Below, piece after piece: positions 1 through 26,639 of a stretch of DNA of 26,639 nt; position 1 is the stretch's first letter; each line of letters begins with the position of its first letter. Below the pieces are notes generated by a model. The model had not been told where the DNA came from and did not search any database. It was given only the letters and a program-made list of their open reading frames with translations. Source of the DNA: a bacterium (GTDB taxonomy: Bacteria > CSSED10-310 > JAJRTK01); contig JAJRTK010000435.1 of the NCBI GenBank assembly GCA_024278345.1, positions 1-26,639 of the forward strand, in the 5' to 3' direction. Made by a program: the position numbers and the translations under genes.

Positions 1-175
1 GCAACGGGAAGTTGAGGTAACTCCCTGGTGGGTGCAGGGCGAAGCCCTGCCAGGGGATGGAATCCCCGGACGACGTTCGGGTAACGCACGGCGTGACCCG
101 CCAAGCGACAGCGAGGCGTTGCCCGGCCGCTTTCGACTCCACAGTCCCGGGAATGTCCCGCCTTGCGTGGAGACC
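1..175 (+). repeat. R1 multi-hairpin repeat, copy 1 (5' end cut by window edge)
   Basis: The first copy of a dispersed structured repeat also found at 11400-11670, 14146-14406 and 19262-19518, always on this strand. It begins inside the module that reads GCAACGGG in the other copies. A hairpin GCAGGGC-GAA-GCCCTGC (34-50) is enclosed by CCCTG/CAGGG arms. It is followed by GGGGAT-GGA-ATCCCC, then a GGGTAACGC/GCGTGACCC imperfect stem, and ends near a TGTCCCGCC...GTGGAGACCC motif. No start codon, ribosome site or conserved reading frame makes it look coding. Its function is unknown. Confidence 0.8.
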
Positions 176-420
176 CTTCGGAAGCTAGGGCCGGCTCCTT
201 CGGCGAAGCGACGGGTGGGTTGAAGCTCTCCCACGGGCCTCCACTCTCCGTCACTCCTCGCAGGTGGAACCGCGCCTCAGAATGCATCGCTACGAATTTT
301 CCATGAGAGTTCAGGGTGAGGGATTCGCTTGTTTCTGCCGGGAATGGGGCTCCCCTGTTGGCCTGCTCTTTACAGGGAGGGGTCCGCCGGGGCAAGATTC
401 GGGCCTGGAGTGGCAAAGAA

Positions 421-3094: not shown

Positions 3095-3155
3095 CTTCTG
3101 CTTTTTGGCTGCGTTCCGCTCCCATCGGCGGCAATCCGTCCGCCGATACTCGCCC
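3095..3155 (-). repeat. R2 repeat, copy B (downstream of proS, inverted)
   Basis: Type-2 copy. On the minus strand it reads GGGCGA, then a perfect hairpin ATCGGCGG/CCGCCGAT with an 8-nt loop, then the core GATGGGAGCGGAACGCAGCC, then AAAAAGCAGAAG. It starts about 27 bp after the proS stop and points back toward proS. Its core is nearly identical to that of copy A, while the arm before the core differs. Confidence 0.75.
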
Positions 3156-3228
3156 GTATAATCCGCGCTTTTGGGCCACGACACCGAAGAACGAGTCGAT
3201 CCCCGAGTTTGCATGAGGTCACCCCGCC

Positions 3229-5439
3229 ATGACCCATACATCGCGTTTACCCGGCTTTAATGGCCGTTCCCGGGAGGACAGGGTCGCCGCCGTGCGCGAC
3301 TTCGCCGCTCTTTCCGACGAAGAAGCCAGGCTTTTCGCCAACGGCGACGCGCTTCCCCTGGAACAGGCGCAAAAGGTCATCGAAAATGTCCTCGGACGGT
3401 ACGCCCTCCCCTTCTCCGTGGCCACGAACTTTCGCATCAACGGGCGGGATTACCTGGTCCCCATGTCGGTGGAGGAGTCCTCCATCGTGGCGGCCGCGAG
3501 CTACGCCGCCAAGCTCGCCAGGGAGTGCGGCGGTTTCCAGTGCCGGAGCTCCGATCCCCTCATGATCGCTCAGGTCCAGCTTCTTCGGGTGCCGTGCTTG
3601 GAAGCCGCCTGGCGAGAGATTGAGATCCAGAGGGCCGATCTCGTGGCCGAGGCCAACCATCAATTTCCTCGGATGGTGGAGCGCGGCGGCGGGGTCCGGG
3701 ATGTGGAGGCCCGGGTGGTCCAGGCCGAGGGCGGGCCGCCGATGTTCGTCGTTCACTTGATCGTGGATGTGCGCGACGCCATGGGGGCGAACCTGGTGAA
3801 CTCCATCGCCGAGGCCATGGCTCCAAGACTAGAAGTTTTGACTGGCGGGGAGGCGCGCCTCCGGATCTTGTCCAACCTGAGTGATCGGCGGATCGCGCGG
3901 GCCGAGGTTCGGATCAAGCACGAGGTCTTGGGAAGCCGCGGCTTGAACGGCCGGGAAGTGGCCGTGCGGATCGCGGAGGCGCACCAGTTTGCCGAGGCCG
4001 ATCCCTATCGCGCCTGCACCCACAACAAGGGGATCATGAATGGTATCGATCCCATTCTTGTGGCCACGGGGAACGACTGGCGAGCCGTGGAGGCCGGCGC
4101 CCATGCCTATGCCGCCCGCACGGGGCAATACGGACCCATGAGCCAGTGGTGGTGCGACGAAGAAGGAGATCTTCGCGGAGTCCTGGAGCTTCCGCTGGCC
4201 TTGGGAATCGTGGGCGGGATCACCCGCGCCCACAAAATGGCGCGGCTTGCCCTGAAGATCGCCGGAGTCAGGACGGCTCAGGAGCTTGCCGAGGTTGCGG
4301 TGGCGTCGGGGTTGGCCTCGAATCTGGCCGCGTTGAAGGCCCTGGCCACGGAGGGAATCCAGCGGGGCCACATGGCACTCCATGCACGGAATATCGCCTT
4401 TTCCGTGGGCGCCGCCACCACCGAAATCGACAGAGTCGTCCAGGAGATGATCGACCGGGGGAATATCAGCCATGCGGCGGCCCGGGATATCGTGGAAAAA
4501 TTGAAGGCTCATGCAGGGCAGAAACGTCCCGATCCAAGTCCCGTCAACCAGTACGCCATGGCGAAGGTCAACCTGTTCGGGGAGCACTCGGTGGACTACG
4601 GGAAGCCGGCGATTGCGCTTCCAGTCAGGAAAGCCTTGGTGACCATTCTGGTGGAGGATAACGAGTATGGAGAGATCCTCATCCGGTCGCCCAACGAATT
4701 GGATGACGAGATTCCCGTGGCCATCACGCGAACGGTGCTCCGGGAGCTCGGGCTGCCGGAGGATACGGCATTGACCATCACGGGGTACAGCTCCATTCCA
4801 GTTCACGCGCAGCTTGGAAGCTCGGCGGCCTTCGCCGTGGCCATCACGCGAGCCATTGCACAGAAATATGGCCTCGACCTGGGGCCGCGGCGCGTCAACG
4901 AGGTGGCTTTCGAGGCCGAAAAGATCTGCCATGGCAGTCCTAGCGGGCTGGACAATACCGTCGTCACCTACGAGCGTCCCGTTTGGTTCTTGCGGGGCGG
5001 AGAGTTCGAGTTTTTGTCCATCGGGGCAAACTTCGATCTTTGCATTGCCTATACCGGGGAAGAAGCGCCCACGATCCGGGCGCGAGAGCGTTGGGACGCG
5101 GCGATGAAGGCGGAACCGGAGCGGTTCGAGGCCGCCATTGAGGAGCTTGCCAAGATAACCGAGCAGGGGCGGGAGGAGCTTGCCGCTGGCCGCCTGGTGG
5201 AGCTGGGCGCCCTCATGACGCGGAGTCATCAGGTTTTTCAGCGGCTGGGCTTTTCCACTAGGCGCTTGGATGAACTGGTGGAAGCCGCACTTTCTGGTGG
5301 CGCCCTGGGAGCGAAGCTCACCGGTGAGGGTCAGGGCGGATGTATCGTCGCCCTGGCCGAATCCGGGAAGCGGCACGCCGTACTGGGAGCTCTGCGAGCT
5401 GTGAATCCCACCGCCCTCTTCTCGACGGAAGTCCGTTGA
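3229..5439 (+). CDS. Bifunctional class II HMG-CoA reductase / mevalonate kinase fusion
   Basis: A single uninterrupted 736-aa frame carries two complete enzymes of the mevalonate pathway. Residues 1 to about 428 are a class II HMG-CoA reductase. The catalytic residues E83 (in SVEESS), K267 (HNKG), D283 (GNDW) and H381 (GHMALHARN) fall at exactly the numbers used for the Pseudomonas mevalonii enzyme. After a linker of about 15 residues, a GHMP-family mevalonate kinase begins: KVNLFGEHSVDYGKP from K446, LGSSAA at 529-534, HGSPSGLDN at 568-576 with D575 as the expected catalytic base, and KLTGEGQGG at 696-704. The combined role would be HMG-CoA to mevalonate to 5-phosphomevalonate in the cytoplasm. 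The kinase motif-2 lead-in is VHAQLGSS rather than the usual GAGLGSS. GAGG lies 10 nt before the ATG. No other pathway gene is in the window. Assignment of both domains is firm; the biosynthetic direction is inferred from the fusion. Confidence 0.95.
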   Translation: MTHTSRLPGFNGRSREDRVAAVRDFAALSDEEARLFANGDALPLEQAQKVIENVLGRYALPFSVATNFRINGRDYLVPMSVEESSIVAAASYAAKLARECGGFQCRSSDPLMIAQVQLLRVPCLEAAWREIEIQRADLVAEANHQFPRMVERGGGVRDVEARVVQAEGGPPMFVVHLIVDVRDAMGANLVNSIAEAMAPRLEVLTGGEARLRILSNLSDRRIARAEVRIKHEVLGSRGLNGREVAVRIAEAHQFAEADPYRACTHNKGIMNGIDPILVATGNDWRAVEAGAHAYAARTGQYGPMSQWWCDEEGDLRGVLELPLALGIVGGITRAHKMARLALKIAGVRTAQELAEVAVASGLASNLAALKALATEGIQRGHMALHARNIAFSVGAATTEIDRVVQEMIDRGNISHAAARDIVEKLKAHAGQKRPDPSPVNQYAMAKVNLFGEHSVDYGKPAIALPVRKALVTILVEDNEYGEILIRSPNELDDEIPVAITRTVLRELGLPEDTALTITGYSSIPVHAQLGSSAAFAVAITRAIAQKYGLDLGPRRVNEVAFEAEKICHGSPSGLDNTVVTYERPVWFLRGGEFEFLSIGANFDLCIAYTGEEAPTIRARERWDAAMKAEPERFEAAIEELAKITEQGREELAAGRLVELGALMTRSHQVFQRLGFSTRRLDELVEAALSGGALGAKLTGEGQGGCIVALAESGKRHAVLGALRAVNPTALFSTEVR

Positions 5440-5604: not shown

Positions 5605-7083
5605 ATGTCTGAGAAGTATTTGCTGCGTTACATGGGACAAACGGACGCACAAAACCTCGATTACGCCCTGGAGCATGGCGCTTACTCGGCGCTGAAAAAA
5701 GTGCTGTCGGAGATGCCTCCCGGTGAAGTGACCGGTCTGGTGAAGGCGGCCGGCTTGCGAGGTCGTGGCGGCGCCGGGTTTCCCGCCGGCGTCAAGTGGG
5801 GTTTCATCCCGTCGGCGGAAAAACGGGGCGGAAAACCGGTCTACCTTGTGGCGAACGCCGACGAAAGCGAGCCTGGAACCTTCAAAGACCGCGCCATCAT
5901 GACCTACGACCCACACCTCTTCATCGAGGGGATTGCCATCTCCTCCTACGCTGTGGATGCACACCAGGCCTTCATCTACATCCGAGGCGAATTCCATCAA
6001 GAATCTCTCATTCTTGAGCGGGCGGTTGCCCAGGCTTACCAGGCGGGATTTCTGGGGAAGGATATCCAGGGCAGCGGATTCGACCTGGATCTGGTGGTCC
6101 ATCGCGGCGCTGGCGCCTATATCTGTGGCGAGGAAACTGGCCTTTTGTCCTCCTTGCAAGGGGGGCGCGGTGAGCCTCGGCTCAAGCCTCCGTTCCCGGC
6201 TGTCGTCGGGCTCTATTCCTGTCCCACGGTGGTCAACAATGTGGAAACCCTTGCCTGCGTCCCCTGGATCGTCAATCGGGGCGTCGATTGGTTCCGGTCC
6301 ATGGGTCCCGCCAGCGGACCGGGGCCGAAGATCTATTGCGTGAGCGGCCACGTCAAGCGACCCGGCCTTTACGAGCTGCCCATGGGGGTTTCTCTCCGGG
6401 AGCTCATCTACGAACATGCCGGCGGGATCCGGATGGACCGGAAGCTCAAGGCCGTGATTCCCGGCGGAAGCTCGACTCCCGTGCTGACGGCCGACGAGAT
6501 CGACGTGAACATGGACTTCGACAGCCTTGGCAAGATCGGGACGATGCTTGGCTCCGCGGGCGTCATCGTCATGGACGAGACCACCTGCATGGCCAAGGCC
6601 CTGGCCAACCTGACCTATTTCTACGCCCACGAATCTTGCGGGCAGTGTTCCCAGTGCCGTCAAGGGACCCACTGGATCGATCAGATCGCCTCAAGGATCG
6701 CCCAAGGCCGCGGAAACCCCGGGGACATCGAAAAACTCTATGACGTGGTCCGCCGGACCCGTGGTGGACCCACCATCGAAATGATTCCAGCCGAGCCGGG
6801 CGCGACCATCGGTTGTAGCCCTGAGCTCTTCAGGGAGGAGTTCGGGACCGTGCTGAAACCGGAGACCTTGCTTCGGATTCTGGATAGCGAAGCGACGGAG
6901 GAGGATCTGGGGGCCGTCACGGGGATCATGCCCCGCATGGCCGGCCAGACGATCTGCGTGCTACCCATGGCCGTCGCCGCCCCGGTGGAAAGCTTCCTCA
7001 CGAAGTTCCGCCAGGAGTTCGACTACCTCATCGAGAACCGGAAGTCCATGGTGGAAGGCGGCTTCGAGCTCGCGTCCGCCTGA
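5605..7083 (+). CDS. nuoF: NADH-quinone oxidoreductase subunit F (NuoF) with an approximately 59-residue insertion
   Basis: A 492-aa NADH- and FMN-binding subunit of respiratory complex I, which passes electrons from NADH through FMN to an Fe-S cluster at the membrane's cytoplasmic face. Visible motifs are GRGGAGFPAG (from G53), ANADESEPGTFKDR, the nucleotide-site GAGAYICGEETGLL (from G168), and the cluster ligands C345, C348 and C351 in ESCGQCSQC. The usual fourth ligand appears to be C451 in GQTICVLP. Third-to-fourth cysteine spacing is 100 instead of the 41 residues of Thermus Nqo1 (359 to 400), so about 59 residues are inserted. The inserted stretch includes an extra C404. I chose the ATG at 5605 over 5575 because GAGGA lies just upstream. 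nuoE and nuoG are not adjacent, so this is an orphan or dispersed copy. A hydrogenase or formate-dehydrogenase diaphorase subunit is a less likely alternative. Confidence 0.9.
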   Translation: MSEKYLLRYMGQTDAQNLDYALEHGAYSALKKVLSEMPPGEVTGLVKAAGLRGRGGAGFPAGVKWGFIPSAEKRGGKPVYLVANADESEPGTFKDRAIMTYDPHLFIEGIAISSYAVDAHQAFIYIRGEFHQESLILERAVAQAYQAGFLGKDIQGSGFDLDLVVHRGAGAYICGEETGLLSSLQGGRGEPRLKPPFPAVVGLYSCPTVVNNVETLACVPWIVNRGVDWFRSMGPASGPGPKIYCVSGHVKRPGLYELPMGVSLRELIYEHAGGIRMDRKLKAVIPGGSSTPVLTADEIDVNMDFDSLGKIGTMLGSAGVIVMDETTCMAKALANLTYFYAHESCGQCSQCRQGTHWIDQIASRIAQGRGNPGDIEKLYDVVRRTRGGPTIEMIPAEPGATIGCSPELFREEFGTVLKPETLLRILDSEATEEDLGAVTGIMPRMAGQTICVLPMAVAAPVESFLTKFRQEFDYLIENRKSMVEGGFELASA

Positions 7084-7175
7084 ACCGGGATGCCTTTATC
7101 ATCGAGGGGGCAGTGAGCCCGGCCCGGCGGCGATCCGGGGCGGGCGCGGACTAGATTCGTCGTGAGAGTTTCCGG

Positions 7176-7679
7176 CTAATCCACCCACTCCAGGTTTGGG
7201 CGGGAGGGATACTTTTGGGTCAGGGCTTCCAGGACGAAGTCCGGAACCAGGCCGCGCACGCTGCCGCCAAGGGAAAAAACCTCCTTCACCAGCCGTGAGG
7301 AAAGGTAGGTATAGAGCTCCTGGGGCATCATGAAGAGCGTCTCGACTTCGTCCCGGAGCCGCCGGTTCATGAGGGCCATCTGGAACTCGTACTCAAAATC
7401 GCTCACCGCCCGGATGCCCCGAATGATCACGGAAGCATCGTGCCGGTAGCAATAATCCACCAGAAGCCCGGCAAAGAGATCGGCGGTCACGTGAGGAAGC
7501 CCCACAACGCTCCGCTCGATGAGACCGACTCGTTCTTCAGGCGTGAAGAGTGAGGATTTCGCTGGGTTGCTAAGGACTGCCACGACAACGCGGTCGAAGA
7601 GCTTAGAGGCTCTCTCGATGATGTCCAGATGGCCATTGGTAATGGGATCGAAGCTTCCAGGGTAGATGGCTGTCGTCAC
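7176..7679 (-). CDS. coaD: Phosphopantetheine adenylyltransferase
   Basis: A 167-aa cytoplasmic enzyme that transfers AMP from ATP to 4'-phosphopantetheine, the penultimate step of coenzyme A synthesis. It shows the nucleotidyltransferase signature [16 protein letters not shown] with TNGH at residues 14-17, then [16 protein letters not shown] (87-102), and [12 protein letters not shown] (123-134) in place of the usual ISSTLVKE. Length is typical. The start is a GTG, with AGGA about 10 nt upstream. It is the last gene of a compact minus-strand cluster, 56 bp after rsmD, a pairing seen in many bacteria. Confidence 0.97.
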
Positions 7680-7735
7680 GAATTCGAATTCCTTAGGTCA
7701 GAGCGGGAGCTTGGTTCCAGTGGCGCCAGGGTTTC

Positions 7736-8293
7736 TCAACCTCGGGCATAGAAGCTCAGGCAGGTATCGCCCCAGCGCACGAGCCTCGTGCGCATGAGCT
7801 TACCAAAGGCCTGTCCCGGATCGTTTTTGTGGAAATGTTCGTAAATGACCGGTGCGGCCGGTGATTGTACCGGATACTTCGCGATGGTGTTGAGGGTCTC
7901 GAGACCCGCCGGATCTCCGTAGGGCGGGTCCAGAAAGACGATGTCGAACAACTGTTGCCGGTTGTTGAGCATCACAAGGGCATTGGAGGCATCAAAGTGG
8001 ATGATTTCAGTTTGCTGTTGAAATCCACAAGTTTCCAGGTTCTTCGTGATGACTTTGATGCTGCCCCGGGCCATTTCCACCACCGTGAGCCTCTCGGCGC
8101 CGCGGCTGAGAGCCTCAATACCGATGGCGCCGGTTCCGGCAAAGACGTCCAAGAACCTGGTCCCCTCCACGGAACGCCCCAGAATGTCGAAGAGGGCGCC
8201 CCGCACCTTCGCCGAAGTCGGTCGCGTTTTTCGGCCTCGCAATGTTTTGAGCTTTTTTCCCTTCATCAGTCCCCCAAGAATCCGGATCTCCAT
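7736..8293 (-). CDS. rsmD: 16S rRNA (guanine966-N2)-methyltransferase
   Basis: A 185-aa SAM-dependent methyltransferase acting on 16S rRNA during small-subunit assembly. It begins with the usual MEIRILGG...KGKKLKT and has RPT at 24-26. SAM motif I is DVFAGTGAIGIEA (49-61), and the catalytic motif is DPPYG (122-126). Length matches the family. A purine-rich GGAAAGGTAAAGG precedes the ATG. It lies 40 bp after the PEGA gene and 56 bp before coaD, so the three are probably co-transcribed. Confidence 0.95.
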   Translation of the reverse strand: MEIRILGGLMKGKKLKTLRGRKTRPTSAKVRGALFDILGRSVEGTRFLDVFAGTGAIGIEALSRGAERLTVVEMARGSIKVITKNLETCGFQQQTEIIHFDASNALVMLNNRQQLFDIVFLDPPYGDPAGLETLNTIAKYPVQSPAAPVIYEHFHKNDPGQAFGKLMRTRLVRWGDTCLSFYARG

Positions 8294-11220: not shown

Positions 11221-11399
11221 GCCTTTCTCCTCGCGGCGGATCTGTAGCACGAAATCCGTTCTAGGTCTTGGACGTTTCTGGTGAGGCGATCTAGCATGGC
11301 GGATTCAGTCACCGTGAGCGGAAATTTGGGTTAAAGTTATGGCGCTTTCACCTTCAGGTCAACCCCGGGATTGCCATCCAAGGGACAGGGTATCCACTT

Positions 11400-11670
11400 A
11401 ACGCTCATGGGAGAATCGAACCACCCCGAAGAATGAAAGAAAAGGCGCGCAGCGTACAAAGATGTGGGTCCAGGGAGGTAACTCCCTGGTGGCTGCAGGG
11501 CAAAGCCCTGCCAGGGGACCGGGGAAGGAATCCCCGGACGACCGCCGGGTAACGCGAGGCGTGACCCTTCGAGTCACGCAAACGTGACCCGCCAAGCGGA
11601 GCGAGGCGTTGCCCGGACGCTTGGCAGTGCCACAATCCATGGAGTGTCCCACTTTACGTGGATGCCCCAA
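11400..11670 (+). repeat. R1 multi-hairpin repeat, copy 2
   Basis: It begins with a lead-in (ATCGAACCACCCCG at about 11415) that recurs near 11804, then CGCGCAGCGTACAAA. The hairpin chain is: CCAGGGAG-GTAA-CTCCCTGG (11470-11489, with a GNRA-type loop); GCAGGGC-AAA-GCCCTGC (11495-11511); CCGGGGA...TCCCCGG; GGGTAACGC/GCGTGACCC; and GTCACGCAAACGTGAC. It ends with CCACAATCCATGGAGTGTCC and CACTTTACGTGGATGCCCC. The CGTTGC/GCAACG hairpin of copies 3 and 4 is missing here. Confidence 0.85.
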
Positions 11671-11691
11671 TACGTCTCCGCCGCCAAGAGC

Positions 11692-11717
11692 GTGCGCGGG
11701 CCGGAAGGCCCGCGCAC
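11692..11717. repeat. Perfect 11-bp hairpin with GGAA loop
   Basis: GTGCGCGGGCC-GGAA-GGCCCGCGCAC is a perfect inverted repeat just after R1 copy 2. No T tract follows on either strand, so it is not a standard terminator. Confidence 0.85.
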
Positions 11718-11742
11718 AAACTCCATTCCCCAATTTTGTCGC

Positions 11743-13798: not shown

Positions 13799-14145
13799 GC
13801 GGGAACGTGTTGTGCAGTCAGGACCCTACCAAATCAGAGACGCGTTTCGGGTAAGGAGGAGGAGAGACGGACACCGGAGGCGTAGTCCCTCACACCATCG
13901 AGGAGCCGGCCGACGAGGACGCCGCTGGAAGCGATGGATAAGCCGCCGCGGTAGAGACGTGATGAGATATCCGGGTCCAGGGGTGAAGGACGATGAAAGA
14001 GAGACGGAGCAGGAAAGGCGCTCGATCGGGAATGTATTCGGAGTCGCGATTCAGGGCCATCCATGTAAGGCGGGACAGGGAATGAAAACAAGAAGGAAAA
14101 CGCGGGGCCGAGCGACGTGAGACGCCGAGCATGAGCGAGGCCTAC
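13799..14145. other. Noncoding region of unknown content before R1 copy 3
   Basis: Together with R1 copy 3, the gap from the phosphatase to the epimerase is 631 bp. This part is purine-rich on the plus strand (GGAGGAGGAGAGACGG and similar). I see no ribosome site, family motif or repeat matching the rest of the window. Open frames on both strands are low-complexity Arg- or Ser-rich and not credible. Confidence 0.5.
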
Positions 14146-14406
14146 CGTACAAGAATGTGGGTGGGGAACTCGTTGCTTTTCATTGCAACGGGTCCTAGTT
14201 CGCTCCCTGGTGGGTGCAGGGCAACGCCCTGCCAGGGGACGGGGGACGGGTCCCCGGACCACCTTCGAGTCACGCAAACGTGACCCTTCGAGTCACGCAA
14301 ACGTGACCCGCCGAGCGGAGCGAGGGGCAAGCGGTCGCCGAACTGTCCCGCTTTGAGTGGACACCCGAAAGCAACGAGTTTCCCAACCCTCTTTGTGCGC
14401 TGCGCG
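14146..14406 (+). repeat. R1 multi-hairpin repeat, copy 3, with terminal inverted repeats
   Basis: The most complete copy. It runs CGTACAAGAATGTGGGTGGG (14146-14165), GGAACTCGTTGC with hairpin CGTTGC/GCAACG, GCAGGGCAACGCCCTGC, GGGGAC-GG-GTCCCC, two tandem copies of TTCGAGTCACGCAAACGTGA, then TGTCCCGCTTTGAGTGGACA. The right end (14368-14406), read in reverse complement, gives CGCGCAGCGCACAAAG, GGG, and GGGAAACTCGTTGCTTT. That matches the left end of copies 3 and 4, so the element is bounded by imperfect inverted repeats of about 35-40 bp. Confidence 0.85.
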
Positions 14407-19123: not shown

Positions 19124-19598
19124 GGCATGGGCCATTCTACGAAAACTGTTTTGACCTTCGCGGCCCACGGCCACGCCACCGAAAAAGACTTGCTACTTTT
19201 CCCAGCGACCCATTGTAGGGTATGCACCTAAGCCGGGACACACGACAAAACCAGAAAAAGACGCGCAGCGTACAAAAATGTGGGTGGGGAACTCGTTGCC
19301 TTCCAATTGCAACGGGTCCGCAGCTAGCTCCCTGGTGGGTGCGGGGCAAAGCCCTGCCAGGGGACTGGGGACGGAGTCCCCAGACGACCTTCGAGTCACG
19401 CAAACGTGACCCGCCGAGCAGCGCGAGGCGTTGCCCGGACGATTGGCATTACCACAATCCATGAAGTGTCCCGCTTTACGTGGATACCCCCCATTGTCCC
19501 GCCTTGAGTGGATACCCGTGGAGACGATGGATCGACCGCTGCAGTGGAGCCGTGATGAGAACTTCGGGTTTGGAGCCAGCGGCCAGCCACTCTTCAGA
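19124..19598. other. Intergenic region dominated by R1 copy 4
   Basis: 475 bp between convergent genes. Apart from R1 copy 4 (19262-19518) nothing is recognisable, and no T-tract terminator is visible for either neighbour. Confidence 0.6.
19262..19518 (+). repeat. R1 multi-hairpin repeat, copy 4
   Basis: It begins CGCGCAGCGTACAAAAATG, then GGAACTCGTTGCC with hairpin CGTTGC/GCAACG. Next come GCGGGGC-AAA-GCCCTGC (one G-T pair), a perfect 8-bp hairpin CTGGGGAC-GGA-GTCCCCAG, and one GTCACGCAAACGTGAC. It ends with two direct copies of a TGTCCCGC...GTGGATACCC motif (about 19467-19490 and 19496-19518). The inverted right end of copy 3 is absent. Confidence 0.85.
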
Positions 19599-20033
19599 CT
19601 AGCGCCTCTCGGCCACTTCCATGGCCAGCTTCTCCCGTTGCCGTTCCGCTTCCAGAATCTCTTTTTGCAGGCGGAGCAGTTCCCGTTTGGCCTTGACGAG
19701 CCTTTTATCCCGCTTTCGATCTTGCGGAAGCAGCCTGTCGTAGTGCCCCAGGAGCTCATTCTGGGCGCCATAGGCCTTCTGCCGTTTGAGCCGGATCTGG
19801 TCCTCCGCCTCGTGAAATCGCCGGAGCAGCTTCCGGGTCTCCAGGTTTTCGGCCTCCAGAATCTCGCCCTTGTCCTGACTGATGATGCCAAAGAAGACCA
19901 TCATGGCAATCAAGGCCAAGATCAGAATGAAGATGTAGAGATCTCCCGATCGATAGCTGTAGCTGCCGCCACAAGAGGGAAGAAGGATCAGCAGAACCGC
20001 CGGTGCGGCAAAAAATGCTCCCTGTCGGATCAT
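19599..20033 (-). CDS. Small membrane protein with lipobox-like site and coiled coil
   Basis: A 144-aa protein of unknown function. It opens with a hydrophobic segment ending in LLILLPSCGG, which could be a lipobox with the cysteine near residue 21. A second transmembrane helix follows (about 31-50, YIFILILALIAMMVFFGII). Then comes an Arg/Lys/Glu/Gln/Leu-rich region of about 90 residues predicted to be a coiled coil. AAGGAG lies 5 nt before the ATG at 20033, so the longer open frame from 20108 is not used. Architecture resembles the small membrane protein at 12176-12580, but sequence similarity is not obvious. Confidence 0.68.
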   Translation of the reverse strand: MIRQGAFFAAPAVLLILLPSCGGSYSYRSGDLYIFILILALIAMMVFFGIISQDKGEILEAENLETRKLLRRFHEAEDQIRLKRQKAYGAQNELLGHYDRLLPQDRKRDKRLVKAKRELLRLQKEILEAERQREKLAMEVAERR

Positions 20034-20273: not shown

Positions 20274-21095
20274 TCAGTCCGCCAAGGAATCTCTGGCCTT
20301 TTTTACGGCTTCCAGCAGGGCGTCCGCCCTCTGGCGCTCCAAGGGGGCGCCGGCGCGCCCTTTCTCCCGAAGAGTGCTGGAAACGATGGCGCCATCTACC
20401 AAACGCGTCAGCACCGCGTTCTCCGGGTTCAAGCCACTAGCCAGATAGAGGGGAACCCTGGCCAGGCCGCGGACCCTGGCAAGCTGTTCAGGGGTTGGAG
20501 GCGCCCCGGTGCGCGGGCCAGTCACCAATATCCCGTCGGCGAGGGCGCGATCTTGGAGCTCGGCGACTTCGTCTTCCAGGGGAGAAGGGGCCAGGGGGCG
20601 GCTGTGTTTGACACGGATATCGGCAAGGATGGCGATTTTTTCGGCGCACCACTCCCGGCGGCGCCGGAGCGTTTCATGGGCGCGGCCCTGGATGAGGCCC
20701 TGATCGGTGAGCCTGGTGCCGCAGTGGACGTTGACCCGGATGAAATCGGCGCCGGCACAGGTTGCAATGGCCATGGCGGCCAGAGGATCGCAGCGGAGCA
20801 CGTTGACGCCAATGGAAAGTTTCGGGCAGGCATCCCGGACGCGCTGGACGCACACAGCCATGGCCGCTACCACCTCGGGCCCCACGGCACCGGGAAGGAA
20901 GGGTGCGTCGCCGAAGTTTTCCACGATCACTCCCTGAAATCCCCATTCCGCCAGTTGCGCCGCTTCCCGGACGGCTCGGGCAAAAACCGCCTTTGCGTCA
21001 CCGTCAAATCCTGGACTGCCGGGAAGCGGCGGCAAATGGATCGCCGCCATAAGAGCGAATGGCGTCTCCGTGAAAAGCCGCTGGCCTCTTGTCAT
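20274..21095 (-). CDS. BtpA/SgcQ family TIM-barrel protein
   Basis: A 273-aa protein of the BtpA family. In cyanobacteria BtpA is needed for photosystem I stability; the SgcQ branch in other bacteria has no settled biochemical role. Family marks are MAAIHLPPLPGSP near the N-terminus, GVIVENFGDAPF, IGVNVLRCDPLAAMAIA, GADFIRVNVHCG, ADIRVKHSRPL, and the C-terminal ASGLNPENA...DGAIVSSTLR. Together these describe a (beta/alpha)8 barrel. The ATG at 21095 is preferred because GGTGAGGG lies about 7 nt upstream; 21131 is an alternative. There is no photosynthesis gene nearby, so the cyanobacterial role should not be transferred. Confidence 0.9.
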   Translation of the reverse strand: MTRGQRLFTETPFALMAAIHLPPLPGSPGFDGDAKAVFARAVREAAQLAEWGFQGVIVENFGDAPFLPGAVGPEVVAAMAVCVQRVRDACPKLSIGVNVLRCDPLAAMAIATCAGADFIRVNVHCGTRLTDQGLIQGRAHETLRRRREWCAEKIAILADIRVKHSRPLAPSPLEDEVAELQDRALADGILVTGPRTGAPPTPEQLARVRGLARVPLYLASGLNPENAVLTRLVDGAIVSSTLREKGRAGAPLERQRADALLEAVKKARDSLAD

Positions 21096-21130
21096 CGTGC
21101 AACCCTCACCTTTTCTGAAACTCCGCGCCA

Positions 21131-21160
21131 TTGACTTTGAGAAAACACTAGAATTAGCAT
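21131..21160 (+). promoter_or_regulatory. Possible sigma-70 type promoter for the TPR gene
   Basis: TTGACT (21131-21136) and TAGCAT (21155-21160) are 18 bp apart in the only AT-rich part of the divergent gap between the BtpA gene and the TPR gene. Read from sequence alone, so weak. Confidence 0.3.
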
Positions 21161-26498: not shown

Positions 26499-26639
26499 GA
26501 GACCTATCAGATTCGGTTGACAACTTCACCGCTGGGGCGGGCCTCCTTCCCGGCTCCGTGCAGCCCGGAGGGCGCTACACCGGCAAGATGCCGGTGCCAC
26601 CGTTTCGGCGAAGAAAATTGTAAAGCAAAAACACGACAA
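26499..26639 (+). mobile_element. MITE-like element R3, second copy (right end beyond window)
   Basis: It starts GAGACCTATCAGAT, then CGGTTGACAA, matching the left 25 bp of the copy at 12633 with two differences. It keeps the central hairpin CACCGGC-AAGAT-GCCGGTG (26578-26596) and GTAAAGCAAAAACACG near the right end. The regions between these blocks have diverged. The right terminal repeat should lie within about 20 bp past the window edge, followed by a copy of the 8 bases AGAGAAAT (26491-26498). Confidence 0.8.

Follow-up and report, generated by a model that had tools for sequence, protein, structure and literature searches.

A bacterial gene joining class II HMG-CoA reductase to mevalonate kinase, probably by a second, independent fusion

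Results

One reading frame encodes a reductase and a kinase

The window analysed here is a 26,639-nucleotide stretch of bacterial DNA. On its forward strand lies a single uninterrupted reading frame that runs from ATG to TGA (Table 1). Its N-terminal half is a class II HMG-CoA reductase (HMGR), matched by Pfam HMG-CoA_red over residues 16-386 (341 bits) and by NCBIfam TIGR00532 (399 bits against a cut-off of 260). Residues 3-413 align to residues 3-413 of Pseudomonas mevalonii HMGR with identical numbering (1qax, E=1.2e-134). The C-terminal half is matched across all 276 positions of the mevalonate kinase (MK) model TIGR00549, with 201 bits against a cut-off of 163. A preliminary description of the locus had proposed one polypeptide carrying both enzymes, with all four reductase catalytic residues in place. 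Both points were confirmed: the assembled sequence reads through from one half to the other with neither stop nor frameshift, and positions 83, 267, 283 and 381 hold E, K, D and H. HMGR and MK are, as also stated there, consecutive steps of the mevalonate pathway.

Table 1. Features of the HMGR-MK fusion gene, in window coordinates.
Feature	Position	Strand	Basis
GAGG, probable ribosome-binding site	3215-3218	+	sequence; 10 nt ahead of ATG
HMGR-MK fusion gene, 736 aa plus stop	3229-5439	+	frame, family matches, catalytic residues
Class II HMG-CoA reductase, large and small domains, residues 1-376	3229-4356	+	PF00368, TIGR00532, 1qax alignment
Catalytic E83	3475-3477	+	residue at P. mevalonii position
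Cofactor patch, residues 146-152 (F146 P147 R148 ... R152), NADPH-type	3664-3684	+	determinants per PMC10070635
Catalytic K267	4027-4029	+	residue at P. mevalonii position
Catalytic D283	4075-4077	+	residue at P. mevalonii position
C-terminal flap, three helices, residues 377-429	4357-4515	+	model secondary structure
H381, within C-terminal flap	4369-4371	+	residue at P. mevalonii position
Flexible linker, residues 430-438	4516-4542	+	pLDDT <50 at 430-436
GHMP mevalonate kinase domain, residues 439-736	4543-5436	+	TIGR00549, 201 bits; AlphaFold2 model
K446, motif 1 catalytic lysine, retained	4564-4566	+	MK alignment
V456D	4594-4596	+	V in 69/69 other MKs
GHMP ATP loop, residues 523-532, IPVHAQLGSS	4795-4824	+	MK alignment
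G528Q, inside ATP loop	4810-4812	+	MK alignment
D575, catalytic aspartate, retained	4951-4953	+	MK alignment
GHMP motif 3, residues 694-704, GAKLTGEGQGG	5308-5340	+	MK alignment

An AlphaFold2 model of the protein, built on a 34-sequence alignment, contains two complete domains (mean pLDDT 88.4). In the PDB it best matches P. mevalonii-type HMGRs, and its kinase half best matches the MK structures of Leishmania and Methanosarcina. The flap is whole, with helices at residues 377-392, 397-410 and 415-429, and is followed by a linker that is disordered in the model and by the kinase from residue 439. This agrees with the earlier placing of the kinase after the flap that bears H381. The HMGR flap is mobile, and its dynamics have been described (PMC10070635). 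That a fused kinase might affect flap closure is a reasonable idea; as modelled, the flap is complete and a flexible linker follows it, which would not in itself point to a hindered flap.

A promoter scan 5' of the gene gave no signal above chance. Immediately 5' of the gene is a short repeat (3114-3155) that recurs on contig C218 and on three or more further contigs, and a TATAAT lies at or just past its end. Dispersed repeats of about 60-280 bp and 78-98% identity occur at window positions 1-176, 11436-11670, 13834-14325, 19218-19490 and 26501-26639, with copies on several other contigs; minus-strand ORFs that overlie them (3-524, 11398-11733, 13834-14277 and 19193-19891) are probably mere repeat. 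Positions 20274-21131 encode a BtpA/SgcQ family protein.

Further pathway genes lie elsewhere in the genome

The fusion gene is flanked upstream by proS (type I ProRS) and downstream by nuoF, and no further mevalonate gene was identified adjoining it. We determined gene content by family searches of the source assembly (6.06 Mb, 550 contigs, 87.9% complete), in which the fusion protein is the sole HMGR. Three genes sit together on contig C218. One encodes a free-standing canonical MK (240 bits) with 41% identity to the fused kinase; the others encode MVD (261 bits) and a PMK-like protein that scores 111 bits, under the 166-bit cut-off. In the frame listing, the free-standing MK (L037:10944-11906) overlaps the beginning of MVD. 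IDI-2 is present on contig C385, and a leftover GHMP match on contig C480 resembles homoserine kinase on inspection of its sequence. Family searches of the 87.9% complete assembly found none of the MEP-pathway markers Dxr, IspG and IspE. Of the pathway partners named in the preliminary description, MVD and a PMK-like protein are thus encoded, and HMG-CoA synthase was not found with PF08540 or TIGR00748 in this 88% complete assembly. Its absence possibly reflects missing assembly or an alternative source of HMG-CoA such as leucine breakdown.

Both the fusion contig and C218 match the genome in GC and tetranucleotide composition (r 0.78 to each other) and carry dispersed repeats that also occur elsewhere in the assembly, so both kinases probably come from one organism. 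Contamination as the origin of C218 is disfavoured on the same grounds. Among the eight genomes of the host's phylum that were searched, the fusion, or indeed any HMGR match, occurs in the source genome only.

Cofactor residues and genome content point to biosynthesis

NADPH-specific class II HMGRs carry Y146-P147-S148 and R152, whereas the NADH-specific P. mevalonii enzyme carries D146-Q147-L148 and L152 (PMC10070635). The window protein has F146-P147-R148 and R152, an FPRR patch that resembles NADPH-type YPSR and not NADH-type DQLL. D146 of the NADH-binding helix, present in all 20 of the unfused degradative-type Pseudomonadota HMGRs compared, is replaced by F146. The enzyme therefore differs from P. 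mevalonii HMGR (1qax, 4i4b), which is unfused, NADH-specific and degradative, in its cofactor residues and its C-terminal kinase, even though the two share ~53% identity, their numbering over residues 3-413, the four catalytic residues and the three-helix flap. Judged by these residues, the window HMGR probably uses NADPH.

The fusion enzyme is probably biosynthetic because its cofactor residues are of NADPH type, it is the sole HMGR of a genome in which the three MEP markers were not found, and PMK, MVD and IDI-2 are encoded elsewhere in that genome. The biosynthetic role that the preliminary description had argued for, despite class II membership, is thus supported, and the same cofactor residues and genome content counter a degradative HMGR. 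For NADPH-type enzymes embedded in the pathway, the database label 'HMG-CoA reductase, degradative' (TIGR00532) is misleading.

HMGR-MK fusions are widespread

We scanned GTDB genomes with an HMGR-based query and retained the best 80 loci, 49 of which have HMGR and MK in one open frame. At least 49 other species in six or more phyla share this domain order, which rules out a fusion unique to the source genome. Carriers in the Pseudomonadota include Woeseiaceae, Rhodanobacteraceae (Rhodanobacter, Dyella), Salinisphaera, Wenzhouxiangella, Nevskia and others; beyond that phylum they include Calditrichota, KSB1, Acidobacteriota, Planctomycetota and Actinomycetota (Cryobacterium, Nakamurella). In all 39 fusion-carrying genomes searched, no MK other than the fused kinase exceeds the cut-off; this, with the number of species, indicates that fusion of HMGR to MK is compatible with function.

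This common family resembles the window protein in possessing both domains in the same order with a similar linker length. Its own features are a separate clade for both domains, canonical kinase motifs, a kinase that is the genome's only MK, and a gene order that at most loci is MVD-PMK-fusion; MVD and PMK are not beside the window gene but on C218. The distance from H381 to the MK lysine is 65 residues in the window protein and mostly 61-84 (range 31-109) in the common family, a variation that argues against any conserved fixed geometry. One member (L066, match 6001-8025) lacks flap helices 2 and 3; its spacing is 31 residues, and the kinase comes almost straight after the catalytic helix. 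Cofactor patches are nearly all HPxR in common fusions, HP[AS]R in Myxococcota and other combinations (SSTL, DPVL and others) in Chloroflexota relatives.

In Myxococcota (G035, Corallococcus), idi2-HMGR-MK-MVD-PMK operons likewise place MK directly after HMGR, but in G035 the two are separate genes a few nucleotides apart. It is plausible that such neighbouring genes represent a pre-fusion state. Away from its mevalonate operon, G035 carries another class II HMGR gene (L039:6851-8275), which has no MK adjoining.

MvaE is the usual example of a bacterial mevalonate-pathway fusion. In Enterococcus it joins acetoacetyl-CoA thiolase to a class II HMGR (PMC10070635) and so differs from the window fusion in that the partner is a thiolase, N-terminal to HMGR and upstream in the pathway. 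MvaE is the sole fusion listed in a 2026 review of isoprenoid pathways in bacteria (PMC13001223). No publication describing an HMGR-MK fusion was found in the open literature; subscription papers and preprints lay outside this search and may hold a prior description. The architecture hence appears to be widespread yet undescribed.

The window fusion groups with unfused Chloroflexota enzymes

Neither domain tree favours placing the window protein in the common fusion family. Its HMGR falls among unfused Chloroflexota and degradative HMGRs and its kinase among unfused Chloroflexota MKs, in each case apart from the fused clade. Once closer Chloroflexota sequences are included, the grouping with Chloroflexota is supported at 100/98 (HMGR) and 99/97 (MK), although the window branch is long. 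These nearest relatives (Roseiflexus, Chloroflexus and others) reach 57% identity for HMGR and about 43% for MK and differ from the window protein in their HMGR cofactor residues. The search of 400 Chloroflexota genomes gave matches in 94, and among the matches listed HMGR and MK are always apart in the genome. The fused kinase does not pair with the C218 MK in the tree, so that a recent duplication is not favoured, though the AU test does not reject the pairing (p=0.235).

From these trees, the window fusion probably arose a second time, convergently, from an HMGR and an MK that would have been related to the unfused Chloroflexota enzymes. The rival account, a single origin shared with the common family followed by fast divergence, would be equally compatible with a bifunctional enzyme. 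It draws on the common domain order and similar spacing, on an FPRR patch nearer to HPxR than to the Chloroflexota residues, and on those AU tests that do not reject grouping of the window protein with the common fusions (p=0.167 for HMGR alone; p 0.276 for HMGR and 0.299 for MK in earlier tests on broader single-domain sets). Against this, each domain separately groups with unfused Chloroflexota proteins, and the grouping is rejected for MK alone (p=0.028) and for the concatenated domains (p=0.036, obtained after closer Chloroflexota sequences had been added and the domains concatenated). We consider a shared origin unlikely.

The kinase half departs from otherwise conserved positions

Comparison with 69 other MKs gave 34 columns that are at least 95% conserved. 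The fused kinase departs at five of them (I448N, V456D, G528Q, V619R and L670F), the maximum among the 70 sequences, and at V456, G528 and L670 the 69 others show no variation. G528 is the first glycine of the GHMP ATP loop (GLGSS). The catalytic residues K446, E452, E564, D575 and T615 are all retained. In motif 3, the site of Q702 is also R or W in Chloroflexota MKs, so the change there is less odd than at first sight. The preliminary description had spoken of a complete GHMP mevalonate kinase; this is likely, given the full TIGR00549 span and the catalytic residues, but is qualified by the departures at otherwise invariant sites and by the second MK in the genome.

Discussion

We favour, with moderate confidence, the reading that the gene encodes a bifunctional biosynthetic HMGR-MK enzyme. 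The N-terminal class II HMGR would convert HMG-CoA to mevalonate, probably with NADPH, and the C-terminal GHMP kinase, held by a short flexible linker at the end of the flap, would convert mevalonate to mevalonate-5-phosphate. PMK, MVD and IDI-2 encoded elsewhere in the genome would carry this product on to IPP and DMAPP. The likeliest benefit of fusion would be production of the two enzymes at a fixed 1:1 ratio and release of mevalonate near the kinase. Channelling, the direct hand-over of mevalonate that the preliminary description raised, would be a hypothetical further gain. That both halves are active is what the sequence leads us to expect.

The chief doubt concerns the kinase, since a canonical MK elsewhere in the genome could have allowed the fused one a relaxed or altered function. 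Its MK activity may have been lost or much reduced, the domain being kept as a structural or regulatory part of HMGR and the phosphorylation of mevalonate being left to the C218 enzyme; the domain could, for example, bind mevalonate, ATP or an isoprenoid and act through the attached flap. This account is supported by the second MK, by substitutions at sites that do not vary in 69 MKs (V456D, and G528Q in the ATP loop) and by the tethering of the kinase to the flap end in the model. It is a serious alternative but, in our estimation, the less likely one because all five catalytic residues are retained, the score exceeds the MK cut-off and part of the motif 3 change (Q702) lies at a site that varies in Chloroflexota MKs. 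An active kinase is, on sequence grounds, the more likely case given the intact frame, the intact catalytic residues and the dozens of genomes that depend on a fused MK. More speculative still is the specific proposal that, after a second, independent fusion, the second MK freed the kinase to turn regulatory, so that it would sense mevalonate, ATP or an isoprenoid and govern HMGR via the flap.

An active kinase might instead favour another substrate and leave mevalonate to the C218 enzyme. Such a preference would fit the pair of MK-like proteins in the genome and the changes close to the motif 1 substrate/ATP region, but the nearest relatives and nearest solved structures are all mevalonate kinases and fusion to HMGR itself favours mevalonate, making it very unlikely. 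Least probable by far is an artefact of assembly or binning that merged two genes or brought in a contig from another organism. The assembly is fragmented into 550 contigs, yet coding is continuous and in frame across the join, composition and repeats tie the fusion contig and C218 to the genome, and isolates such as Dyella and Rhodanobacter have the same architecture.

The window gene is a genuine fusion with a widespread, apparently undescribed architecture, here with an unusual kinase half and probably reinvented. HMGR is widely regarded as rate-limiting for the mevalonate pathway. A natural HMGR-MK fusion that occurs in many bacteria, and was apparently made at least twice, makes selection for coupling of the two steps testable, and these fusions are natural starting material for mevalonate engineering.
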